In this document: positions 20,095-38,751 of the stretch, piece by piece | Position numbering within the stretch: position 1 is the first letter of the stretch | How the letters are laid out: each line of letters begins with the position of its first letter | Origin: Candidatus Thorarchaeota archaeon | Lineage (GTDB): Archaea; Asgardarchaeota; Thorarchaeia; Thorarchaeales; Thorarchaeaceae | Length of the DNA stretch: 43,515 nucleotides | Reading direction: 5' to 3' | Assembly: GCA_003662765.1 (NCBI GenBank) | Contig: QMYR01000002.1 | Span: forward strand, 1 to 43,515 | Program-made: the position numbers and the translations under genes | The notes under the pieces: generated by a model | What the model was told of the DNA's origin: nothing | The model's database searches: none | The model's input: only the letters and a program-made list of their open reading frames with translations

Positions 20095-20204
20095 GGGGAC
20101 GTGGCCTAGCCCGGTATGGCGACGGGCTCCAGATCTTGTGAATAACGGGGTCATAAGAAGAGGACACTCGTCGATCCTGGGTTCAAATCCCAGCGTCCCC
20201 ACCA
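20095..20204 (+). tRNA. tRNA-Trp (anticodon CCA) with 33-nt intron at canonical 37/38 (intron about 20133-20165), CCA encoded
   Basis: GGGGACG...CGTCCCC acceptor; ACGGG(27-31)/CTCGT(39-43); loop C-T-CCA-G-[intron]-A; T-arm CTGGGTTCAAATCCCAG. Confidence 0.9.
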
Positions 20205-26335: not shown

Positions 26336-26351
26336 ATAGTAGGAGACGTGT

Positions 26352-27641
26352 ATTAAAATCGGAACCGACTTCGATCAGAGTACTGCGAAATATGTCATCA
26401 GAGCTCGGATCGAGATTGATGGCGTTGTTGACAAACCAGATGTTGTGGGGGCAATCTTTGGTCAGACAGAGGGTCTCCTTGGAGAAGACCTTGACCTCAG
26501 AGAACTGCAGAGGACCGGCAGAATCGGCAGGATACAGATTGCCATAAAGTCGGAGGGCGGTATGAGCAAGGGAGAGATTGTCATCCCTGTGTCACTCAAC
26601 AAGACCGCAACCGCAATACTTGCCGCTGCCTTGGAAACTGTCGACAGGGTCGGTCCCTGTACGGCCAAAGTCACACTTGAAAAGCTGGAGGACATTCGCG
26701 GAGCCAAGAGACGCAGAGTTGTGAGCAGGGCAATTAGTATACTGAAGGATTGGGAGGAAGAAGTTGCCCCGGGCACTGAGGAAATCACTGACGCAGTGAC
26801 TCGAGCCAGCCGAAAGACCGTTGTCAAGTTCGGCCCGGAGAGTCTCCCCGCTGGCCCTGATCTTGCCGATAGTGACGAGATCATCATAGTGGAGGGGCGC
26901 GCTGATGTCATCAATCTCATGAAGAATGGAATAACGAACACTGTTGCCGTTGAGGGGACCCACATTCCAAAGTCAATCGTGGATCTCACGAGAAAGAGCA
27001 AGACCGTGATAGCCTTTCTCGACGGTGATCGAGGCGGTGACCTCATTCTTCGGGAGCTCATGCAGGTTGCAAGAGTCGACTACATAGCGAGAGCCCCAGA
27101 GGGGAAGGAAGTAGAAGAACTCACCAAACGGGAGATTCAGAAGGCTCTGCAGAGTAAGATTCCTGCAGACCAAGCATTAGCATTGGTGAGTGATAGAAAG
27201 GCTCCCGCCCCGAAGAGGAGGAAGACCACGAGGAAGCCCACACGGCCAAAGAGAGAGGAAGTTGTATCAGCACCAGTCACACCACCGGTGAGGGCCACAA
27301 CCTCCAAGAGGCCTCGTCCTCAACCCAGATACTCCCGCGAAGTTGACGAGGAATATGCATCCAAGGTTGATGAGATTCGTGAGTCCTTCAGGGCGATTCT
27401 CTTTGACAAGGACAAGAACGTAATCGTCGAGTGCGGCGTAGCTGAGCTCACTAAGCAGCTTGAGAGCCTTGAGGGCGTGAATGCGATTGTCTTTGATGGG
27501 GTAGTCACTCAAAGACTAGTTGACCTAGCGGCCAAGAAGGGGGTCGAATTGATCATCGGAGCAGCGGTTGCAGACATAGAAACGCGACCACCAGGCCTGA
27601 AATACCTCACCTTCGAAGATGTGGATAGACAGCGGTCATGA
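26352..27641 (+). CDS. dnaG: DnaG-type primase/exosome-associated protein, probable ATT start
   Basis: frame of track ORF 26445-27641 extends upstream as (M)KIGTDFDQSTAKYVIRARIEIDGVVDKPDVVGAIFGQTEGLLGEDLDLRELQ; in-frame stops at 26337 and 26340; GGAG 6 nt before ATT. Confidence 0.9.
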   Translation: MKIGTDFDQSTAKYVIRARIEIDGVVDKPDVVGAIFGQTEGLLGEDLDLRELQRTGRIGRIQIAIKSEGGMSKGEIVIPVSLNKTATAILAAALETVDRVGPCTAKVTLEKLEDIRGAKRRRVVSRAISILKDWEEEVAPGTEEITDAVTRASRKTVVKFGPESLPAGPDLADSDEIIIVEGRADVINLMKNGITNTVAVEGTHIPKSIVDLTRKSKTVIAFLDGDRGGDLILRELMQVARVDYIARAPEGKEVEELTKREIQKALQSKIPADQALALVSDRKAPAPKRRKTTRKPTRPKREEVVSAPVTPPVRATTSKRPRPQPRYSREVDEEYASKVDEIRESFRAILFDKDKNVIVECGVAELTKQLESLEGVNAIVFDGVVTQRLVDLAAKKGVELIIGAAVADIETRPPGLKYLTFEDVDRQRS

Positions 27642-34932: not shown

Positions 34933-36228
34933 GTGGTCCTGTTGAGCTTCGCTGACGTAACAAGGGATAGTGGAAGTGAAGCATTAGTGACCAGGAAATA
35001 TGAAGGACAGTCAGAGATAAACATTGGAGCACTGGGTCACGTTGACCATGGGAAGACAACCCTTGTGGAGTATCTCACTGGCGAGTGGACTGATAGGCAC
35101 TCCGATGAGATCAAGAGGGGAATCTCCATTAGGCTGGGCTACGCTGCGACAACGATATTGAAGTGCCCCAACTGTCCAGAACCTGAGGCATACACAACAT
35201 CACACTTGGCAAAGGATGGGAAATGCCCTCACTGTGGGTCTGAGCTAGAGAAACTACGTGAAGTTTCGTTTGTTGATAGTCCTGGTCACGAGTCGCTTAT
35301 GGCAACCTGCCTCAGTGGCGCAAGCCTAATGGATGGTGCAATCTTGGTGATTGCAGCGGATGAACCGTGCCCAATGCCACAGACTGCAGAGCATCTTCAT
35401 GCACTGGAAATAGTTGGTGTAAGGAACATCATCATTGTTCAAAACAAGATAGAACTCGTTTCTGAGGAACAGGCGAAAGAACACTATAAGCAGATTCGGG
35501 AGTTCATCAAAGGGACATCTATTGAAGGGGCACCAATAATACCAGTTTCTGCAGTGTTTGGGGCCAACATCGATCTCTTGATTCAGAGGATTGAGGAAAT
35601 AATTCCGACTCCCGAGCGCGATGCTAATGCACCACCGAAGATGTTCGTGGCGAGATCCTTTGACATCAACAAGCCGGGCACTCTCCCACAGGACCTGAAG
35701 GGTGGTGTCATTGGCGGGTCCATTGTACGGGGAAGGCTTCGCGTTGGTGATGAGATAGAGATAGCACCGGGGATGAAAACTGAGAAAGGATTCAAGCCCA
35801 TCCGGGCCAAGATAGTGAGCTTGGTTTCTGGGAGTGGGAACTATCTGGAGGAGGCGCATCCCGGAGGGCTGATTGGAGTCGGTACGAGCTTGGACCCTGC
35901 AGCCACGCGGGCCGACAGACTAGTGGGCAATGTGGTAGGGAGAGTGGGAAAGATGCCGAAGACCGTTAGCAAACTCACAATTCGGCCCCATCTCATGAAG
36001 CGTGTTGTTGGAATGGACTCTGAGAGGGAGGTAGAGAGCCTTAGGCACAATGAGGTCTTGATGCTCGTGGTAGGTACAGCTGCAACCGTAGGGGTGATCA
36101 CCCGACTCCACGGCGAGGAGATTGAACTCACACTGAAAAGACCTGTCTGTGTTGAGGCTGGACAAAGGATTGCACTTGGACGAAGGGTAGACAACAAGTG
36201 GCGTCTGATAGGCCATGCTGTGATATAG
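34933..36228 (+). CDS. translation initiation factor aIF2 subunit gamma
   Basis: [49 protein letters not shown]...[21 protein letters not shown]. Confidence 0.97.
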
Positions 36229-36243
36229 AAGTGACTTGGTATC

Positions 36244-36654
36244 GTGAGCGCATTGCCTGTTTCAGTAGTTGTAGACACGAACTTTCTGACTGTACCTGTT
36301 CAGCTCGGGATAGACATCTTTAGCGAAGCAGAGAGCGTCATAGAACGCCAAGTCCGCTTCGTCGTGCTTCAGTCAGTAGTATCAGAGATTGACCGTAGAA
36401 TTGCCATTGGCAGAAGATCGTCGCCGCATTTTAGAGTTGCAAGGGAGCTCGTCAACCGATGTGAGATCGTGGAAACACCGCAGGACATCCAGTCAATGCC
36501 AGTGGATGACCAACTCTTGGAGTATGCCTCGCGTGTCAAGGGCGTCCTTGCCACAAACGACAGAAGACTGAGACAGCGAGCACGTTCACTCGGGGTGCCA
36601 GTTCTGATGATTCGGGGAAGAAAGAGAGTTGTGCTTGAGGGGACTCTACTCTGA
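36244..36654 (+). CDS. PIN-domain (FCF1-like) putative ribonuclease
   Basis: VVVDTNFLTVPVQLGIDIFSEAE...VLATNDRRLRQRARSLGVPVLMIRGRKRV; GTG start. Confidence 0.85.
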   Translation: MSALPVSVVVDTNFLTVPVQLGIDIFSEAESVIERQVRFVVLQSVVSEIDRRIAIGRRSSPHFRVARELVNRCEIVETPQDIQSMPVDDQLLEYASRVKGVLATNDRRLRQRARSLGVPVLMIRGRKRVVLEGTLL

Positions 36655-36846
36655 CTCAACGAGAGTGTCGAGTGGGAGTAGGTTGATGTACACATGCGCC
36701 TTGTCATAATGTTTTTATGGCCACTGTAGCGTTGCAGCGCTGAGCCGTCGGGTCTAGACCATCGGCCTGAAGACCGAGGTCTGATTATTCTTGGAGCAAT
36801 CCTGCAAGGCGAAGCGGACTTGTTGATGACATAGGAGGTCGCACCG

Positions 36847-37440
36847 ATTTACTCAATCGTCACAGTAAGGGATGTCGTGAGAATCCCGCCATCACAGTTT
36901 GGCCAACCTCTAGAAGAGGCTGCAATGGTCCATCTCAGGAAGAACCACGAGAACGTCCTTGATCGGGACATTGGTCTGATGATAGCTGTCATTGGTATTG
37001 ATGAGATAGGACAGGGCAGACTGGTCCCCGGCGATGGCGCCACATACCACTCTGTCACGTACAGGGTATTAGCTTTCAAGCCAATCCGAGGTGAAGTGGT
37101 TGAGGGTAACGTCGTCGAAATCATGGATTTCGGCGCATTCATACGAATTGGGCCGCTGGACGGGCTTTGCCACGTAAGCCAGATATGCGACGACTTCATC
37201 ACACAAGACACAAAGGGCAACTCCCTGATGGGAAAGGAAACTGGCAGGATTCTTCAAGAGGGTGATCAGGTGAGGGCACGAATCACAACCATAAGTTTCG
37301 ACACAGGAAGTCGGTCTGGAAAGCTGGGCCTCACAATGCGACAACCCTTCCTTGGAAAGATTGGCCCCGATGTGTCGTGGGTGGAGGAAGATGTCAAGGC
37401 CGCTCGCGGCGAAGTAGAGAAGAAAGAGAAGAAGAAGTAG
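36847..37440 (+). CDS. rpo7: RNA polymerase subunit Rpo7 (RpoE'), probable ATT start
   Basis: frame of track ORF 36877-37440 extends to ATT giving (M)YSIVTVRDVVRIPPSQFGQPLEEAAMVHL; GGAGGT just upstream; S1 domain VVEIMDFGAFIRIGPLDGLCHVSQI. Confidence 0.93.
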   Translation: MYSIVTVRDVVRIPPSQFGQPLEEAAMVHLRKNHENVLDRDIGLMIAVIGIDEIGQGRLVPGDGATYHSVTYRVLAFKPIRGEVVEGNVVEIMDFGAFIRIGPLDGLCHVSQICDDFITQDTKGNSLMGKETGRILQEGDQVRARITTISFDTGSRSGKLGLTMRQPFLGKIGPDVSWVEEDVKAARGEVEKKEKKK

Positions 37441-37458: not shown

Positions 37459-37671
37459 ATGGCACGCTTACGCGCCTGCAGACAATGTCACTACCTCACG
37501 ACTGAGAACGTCTGCCCAAACTGCAAGAGTACAAACCTGTCAACGTCATTCACAGGCATAGTTGTAATACTCCCAGGACGAAATCCCCACGAAGACCCCC
37601 GAAAGACCTCATACATTGCAGAGAAACTCAATATCGACAAGCCAGGAAAATATGCCTTGAAGGTGAGATAA
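37459..37671 (+). CDS. spt4: Spt4 (RpoE'')
   Basis: RACRQCHYLTTENVCPNCKSTNLSTSFTGIVVIL. Confidence 0.93.
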   Translation: MARLRACRQCHYLTTENVCPNCKSTNLSTSFTGIVVILPGRNPHEDPRKTSYIAEKLNIDKPGKYALKVR

Positions 37672-37773: not shown

Positions 37774-38076
37774 ATGCCAATGAAGATTGAGATTCTTCGT
37801 GAGAGAATGAACAGGCCTCTGGGAAGAAAGGAGATACACTTCAGAATACACCATGTCGGTAGTACGACACCCAGCCGCGCTGATGTCAAGGCGAAGATTG
37901 CGGCTCAGTTTGATGCCGACCCCAGCACGGTCGTGATCAAGAGGCTGAGGACGGCCTTTGGCGTTGGAGTCACTGAGGGCTCGGCAAGAATCTATGATAA
38001 TCCGGACTTGGTTCAGAGAATAGAGAATTCATACATCCTCAAGCGACACGAGGCGAAGAAGGCAGCAGAGGCGTGA
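37774..38076 (+). CDS. rps24e: 30S ribosomal protein eS24
   Basis: [41 protein letters not shown]...[14 protein letters not shown]; internal ATG preferred. Confidence 0.9.
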
Positions 38077-38641: not shown

Positions 38642-38751
38642 AGCGGGTTGGGGAAGCCAGAGATTGGCGGACTCGATCCTCAATCGACTAAGTCTATCCC
38701 GCGGGGCTCATAACCCCGAGATCGGTTGTTCAAATCAACCACCCGCTACCA
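38642..38751 (+). tRNA. initiator tRNA-Met (CAT) with insertion/intron in the D-loop, CCA encoded
   Basis: A1-U72 acceptor AGCGGGT/ACCCGCT, CGGGG-CTCATAA-CCCCG anticodon arm, T-arm GGTTGTTCAAATCAACC; D-loop 38655-38696 is 42 nt. Confidence 0.9.

Follow-up and report, generated by a model that had tools for sequence, protein, structure and literature searches.

From which codon is rpo7 (RpoE') translated when no usable standard start precedes the conserved N-terminus of its product? The question arises in a stretch of 43,515 nucleotides (hereafter the window), which belongs to a Thorarchaeial MAG of 2.32 Mb in 205 contigs and represents its contig 2. The Rpo7 relatives at 79–93% identity are Thorarchaeota MAG proteins. 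The gene follows those of the aIF2 gamma subunit and of a PIN-domain protein and is succeeded by spt4, the S24e gene, and the initiator tRNA gene (Table 1). Its product contains an SHS2_Rpb7-N domain followed by an S1 domain, both scoring above the Pfam cut-off. A TATA-like element, TTTTTATG, probably belongs to a promoter of the gene's own. Directly after this element lies the block CGCTGAGCCGTCGGGTC, with 10 of its initial bases invariant across four species; it may indicate where the transcript begins or else a leader RNA. No Rfam element was matched in the rpo7 leader. A sigma-70 promoter scan was discarded, since the model is not applicable to archaea.

Table 1. Positions of the features discussed, numbered from the first nucleotide of the window
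Feature	Position	Strand	Basis
dnaG, without standard start; probable start ATC 26358, alternative ATT 26352	26358..27641	+	Start column of relatives
aIF2 gamma subunit gene, upstream of rpo7	34933..36228	+	Pfam eIF2_C, GTP_EFTU
PIN-domain protein gene	36244..36654	+	Pfam PIN_9
TATA-like element, probable own promoter of rpo7	36712..36719	+	Kept in four species; putative function
5' leader block of rpo7	36738..36754	+	Conserved in four species
In-frame TAG closing the rpo7 frame upstream	36832..36834	+	Sequence
Shine–Dalgarno AGGAGGT of rpo7, 7-nt spacer to ATT	36833..36839	+	7-base match in all five ATT orthologues
rpo7 (RpoE') CDS, 197 codons plus stop, start ATT	36847..37440	+	Sequence, Pfam, structure alignment
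ATT (AUU) start codon of rpo7	36847..36849	+	Aligned to ATG/GTG/TTG in 35 Thorarchaeial orthologues
GTG, mechanical ORF start of rpo7, rejected	36877..36879	+	Inside conserved VRIPP motif
spt4 (RpoE''), start ATG in the window	37459..37671	+	Pfam, orthologue comparison
Ribosomal protein S24e gene	37774..38076	+	Pfam
Initiator tRNA gene, CAU anticodon, insertion (probable intron) in D-arm	38643..38749	+	GGGCTCATAACCC at 38704–38716

The preliminary description had placed the start at ATT 36847 behind a strong Shine–Dalgarno (SD) sequence and had read the codons that follow (YSIVTVRDVV) as an Rpo7 N-terminus in register. These points were borne out. The frame from this codon reads IYSIVTVRDVVRIPPSQF... 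and the codon differs from AUG by one base; no usable standard start lies upstream, and the SD sequence AGGAGGT ends 7 nt before it. Measured against the usual N-terminus MYxxVxxxDxVRIPP, residues 2–15 are conserved, and ATT takes the place of ATG as the first codon. The extension is conserved throughout the family and beyond, and residue 1 of the solved Rpo7 chains 1go3 and 8cro aligns to the ATT codon.

The sole ATG, GTG, or TTG between the TAG at 36832 and codon 11 is GTG 36877. As the first such codon in frame it might be taken for the true start, with the upstream codons forming a leader. However, the ten preceding codons are conserved across the family and match residues 1–10 of the solved chains, so that a start at GTG 36877 would cost the protein ten conserved residues and, with them, the first beta strand. 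The GTG has no SD sequence, and it is not a shared start because G001, G002, and G008, the nearest three species, have GTT, GTA, or GTC as the equivalent codon. None of the orthologues carries ATG at this position, which was the comparison suggested beforehand. A start at GTG 36877 is thus very improbable. Translation from further upstream, by readthrough of TAG 36832 or by a frameshift, is a purely formal alternative and is likewise highly improbable: the in-frame residues upstream are not conserved, stop codons occur there at distances that differ from species to species, and the SD sequence stands directly before the ATT.

Among 42 distinct Thorarchaeial sequences, the start column of rpo7 holds TTG in 17, ATG in 11, GTG in seven, ATT in five, and ATA in two (G016 and G022). 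Where a leucine or valine codon occupies the column, it is always TTG or GTG and never a synonym; therefore, the column is a start column. The ATT is found in the window, in two species of the same genus (G001 and G002), and in G008 and G014, with identical SD spacing throughout. Since these MAGs were assembled separately and ATA, ATC, or CTG occupy the column elsewhere, an ATG misread or misassembled as ATT, conceivable for a metagenome assembly, is hardly credible. The comparison confirms, at the level of sequence, that rpo7 begins at AUU 36847 and not at an AUG, and initiation at this codon is strongly supported.

The strength of the SD sequence differs with the type of start codon. AGGAGGT at a spacer of 7 nt precedes all five ATT copies, whereas none of the 18 standard-start copies tested shows the 7-base match (five to six matching SD bases; Fisher p = 3e-5, a value that is optimistic because the species are related). 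The two ATA copies rely on the 3' portion of the SD sequence (GGTGA), which is in the same register. The rpo7 tree implies that the start switched between the standard and the near-cognate type no fewer than five times. Many Thorarchaeial rpo7 copies have ATG, GTG, or TTG, and AUU is therefore not required in every species.

A changed initiator tRNA could have accounted for the reading of AUU, but no anticodon other than CAU was found among the initiator tRNAs identified, which came from G000, G001, G002, G014, and one further Asgard genome. The motif GGGCTCATAACCC with its CAU anticodon is present in the first four, and the intact initiator tRNA of the fifth has CAU, too. In G001, G002, and G014, this anticodon-stem motif is located downstream of rpo7. 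Because the initiator tRNA keeps CAU, AUU is read most simply with a mismatch at the third position. The initiator tRNA of the window carries approximately 30 additional nucleotides in its D-arm, which are probably an unusually placed intron; the gene was missed by ARAGORN and, at threshold, by Rfam. A second tRNA of the window (107 nt, positions 20095–20201, plus strand) was matched by Rfam RF00005 and missed by ARAGORN; it is probably intron-bearing.

Near-cognate starts are not confined to rpo7. The start of spt4 is ATA in 11 Thorarchaeial species. In all but three of these copies (L010, L039, and L058), an internal ATG at codon 4 is a possible alternative start. In about half of the Thorarchaeial species, no ATG, GTG, or TTG follows the SD sequence of dnaG. 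In the window, this SD sequence is AGGAG (26341–26345), and the column that holds TTG or ATG in relatives holds ATC 26358, which is the likelier start by alignment. ATT 26352 was set aside as the less likely candidate, its column also containing GTT and GTA in relatives. The leader of dnaG (26341–26357) has a conserved AGGAGA(C/A/T)GTG(C/T) in many Thorarchaeial species, even though its GTG is not in frame. A Thorarchaeial gene with an FAEAF motif has ATT where its relatives carry ATG or TTG.

Outside the Thorarchaeia, rpo7 of Hermodarchaeia starts with ATC (four), ATT (one), or CTG (one) behind GGAGG. In a further Asgard family, f2, five of the 13 genomes have ATT TTT AAA at the beginning of rpo7, and the sisters have ATG or GTG followed by TTT AAA. 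Family f2 may belong to the Lokiarchaeia because SD sequences look rare in it, as has been reported for that class (PMC12993045). The Bud32 gene of a Hermodarchaeon starts with ATT behind GGGAGGT, the next standard codon being 72 codons away, and an Odinarchaeal gene with an ATT start has its next standard codon at 87. Genes without a standard start were retained only if they had a strong SD sequence at a spacer of 6–8 nt and if the next standard codon was far away. Most entries of the first list were dismissed as alignments overshooting upstream. Also discarded were the ATA and ATT starts of S24e, for which a GTG directly upstream is the normal start, and the CTG starts of orthologue groups 71 and 103, where a TTG is adjacent.

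Seven genomes, sampled as stretches of about 2 Mb in total, were surveyed for the frequency of such starts. The start column was clear in 50 orthologue groups and held ATG 123 times, TTG 42 times, GTG 20 times, and other codons 15 times; ATG thus makes up about two thirds. The 15 others include one CTG and five ATH codons, four of which belong to dnaG. Since the consensus columns mostly hold ATG, TTG, or GTG, near-cognate starts amount to no more than a few percent. An SD-anchored codon census of the same stretches displayed no clear excess of ATT or ATA, but it is noisy because real starts leak into neighboring codons. Judged from the alignments, the near-cognate class is real and covers AUU, AUA, AUC, and CUG on rpo7, spt4, dnaG, and aIF1. 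The preliminary description had hinted at a lineage-wide class of AUU starts with dnaG as its second member. A class exists and is present in Thorarchaeia, but it is neither restricted to AUU (AUA in spt4, and AUA, AUC, and CUG in Hermodarchaeial rpo7 or in aIF1) nor confined to this lineage, as Hermodarchaeia, Baldrarchaeia, and one or more further Asgard families also have it. For dnaG, the lack of a standard start holds; the codon in the start column is ATC, not ATT.

In other organisms, archaea included, aIF1 contributes to start-codon fidelity and disfavors near-cognate starts. The Asgard protein is a SUI1 (PF01253) orthologue with an N-terminal zinc ribbon, and its own gene has a weak start in several Asgard families. 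In 37 Thorarchaeial genomes, aIF1 begins with GTG (26) or CTG (11) and in none with ATG (a few CTG readings, in G013 and G023, are ambiguous); the start stays weak even where one codon has replaced the other. The start in family f2 (16 genomes) is ATT in 13, ATA in two, and ATC in one. In most of these genomes, AAA GAC GAC follows the ATT, and an in-frame stop is located a few codons upstream; the two genomes with ATA contain, in addition, a GTG four codons before it. All three Baldrarchaeia have ATA behind AGGAGG, and single genomes of further Asgard families start aIF1 with ATA or CTG. ATG is found in Odin, Jord, and Hermod genomes and in 16 of the 16 readable genomes of the outgroup phylum Nanohalarchaeota. 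The SD sequence of aIF1 in four Hermodarchaeia (L130, L131, L133, and L136) seems to lie 5 nt (by register) from the ATG, closer than is usual for the genome. The control gene aIF1A has ATG in most f2 genomes. In nearly all Thorarchaeial genomes examined, aIF1A starts with TTG and is another initiation factor with a weak start.

These observations can be combined into a mechanism. The ordinary initiator tRNA with its CAU anticodon would decode AUU as methionine, the mismatch at the third position being tolerated, and the full-length SD sequence at the best spacing would offset the weakness of the codon. Such a near-cognate reading, rescued by a strong SD sequence, is the most likely route of initiation at rpo7. 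Since aIF1 should disfavor near-cognate starts such as its own, the weak start of its gene would limit aIF1 synthesis, and the translation of rpo7, spt4, and dnaG would follow the aIF1 level. The account as a whole, comprising the AUU start, the unchanged tRNA with SD compensation, the set of near-cognate genes, and a putative self-limitation of aIF1 which the three genes would follow, is assigned a probability of roughly 0.85 on the basis of the sequence comparisons.

With regard to rpo7, a simpler alternative has close to an even chance: near-cognate starts may be tolerated and drift in, offset by a stronger SD sequence and free of any regulation by aIF1. The rpo7 start does wander among ATG, GTG, TTG, ATT, and ATA in close relatives, the SD sequence compensates for the weak codons, and near-cognate starts are scattered over unrelated genes. 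For this gene alone, drift with SD compensation and control by aIF1 are about as likely as each other, and control of rpo7 by the aIF1 level is put forward as a hypothesis by analogy. The starts of aIF1, in contrast, are not well explained by neutral drift. Under drift, ATG would be expected often, given its share at the consensus columns; yet Thorarchaeial aIF1 switches only between GTG and CTG, and f2 aIF1 has ATT in 13 of 16 genomes while aIF1A in the same family mostly has ATG. The weak starts of aIF1 suggest, by analogy to bacterial infC, a self-limiting control. Extending this control to an Asgard circuit, in which near-cognate starts (AUU, CUG, AUA, and GUG) would make aIF1 self-limiting and rpo7, spt4, and dnaG would form the regulon that follows it, is a tentative proposal with the odds somewhat against it.

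Bacteria and organelles are known to use near-cognate starts. Gene callers accept ATG, GTG, and TTG only; hence, genes with near-cognate starts, aIF1 included, are truncated or missed in Asgard genomes. In the literature library searched, no earlier report of noncanonical starts in Asgard archaea was found. The reviews consulted do not list AUU, AUA, AUC, or CUG among conserved archaeal start codons; one of them, on archaeal initiation, names AUG, GUG, and UUG only (PMC7531240). The genes described here make a direct test of start-codon stringency possible in the Asgard group.

The protein of the window shares its domains with the archaeal Rpo7/RpoE' and the eukaryotic Rpb7, and its N-terminus is in register with 1go3 and 8cro; the start codon alone differs. 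A close parallel to the aIF1 gene is infC, encoding IF3, which starts with ATT in E. coli and with ATC in Streptomyces (PMC5472188). Both are genes of a fidelity factor with a near-cognate start of its own, and the AUU of E. coli infC is the codon found in rpo7 of the window and in f2 aIF1. However, IF3 and aIF1 are unrelated proteins of bacteria and archaea, respectively, and Rpo7 is not an initiation factor. The autoregulation of infC is proven, according to the literature cited in PMC5472188, whereas that of aIF1 is a prediction. The sigR gene of Streptomyces, a transcription gene held low by a noncanonical start, may serve as a model for rpo7, spt4, and dnaG. It starts with GTC instead of AUU or AUA, and its repression by IF3, in contrast to the putative repression of the Asgard genes, is known from experiments (PMC5472188). 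The eukaryotic homologue of aIF1, eIF1, autoregulates through an AUG in poor context (PMC5823381). A weak start limits its synthesis, as it would that of aIF1; the Asgard genes use GUG, CUG, AUU, or AUA in place of the poorly placed AUG. Should the start codon of aIF1 make this factor self-limiting, IF3, eIF1, and aIF1 would represent three unrelated solutions to one feedback problem, with the Asgard solution adjoining the root of the eukaryotes. The circuit, if true, would correspond in archaea to that of infC, and the autoregulation of eukaryotic eIF1 might have arisen from a circuit of this kind.
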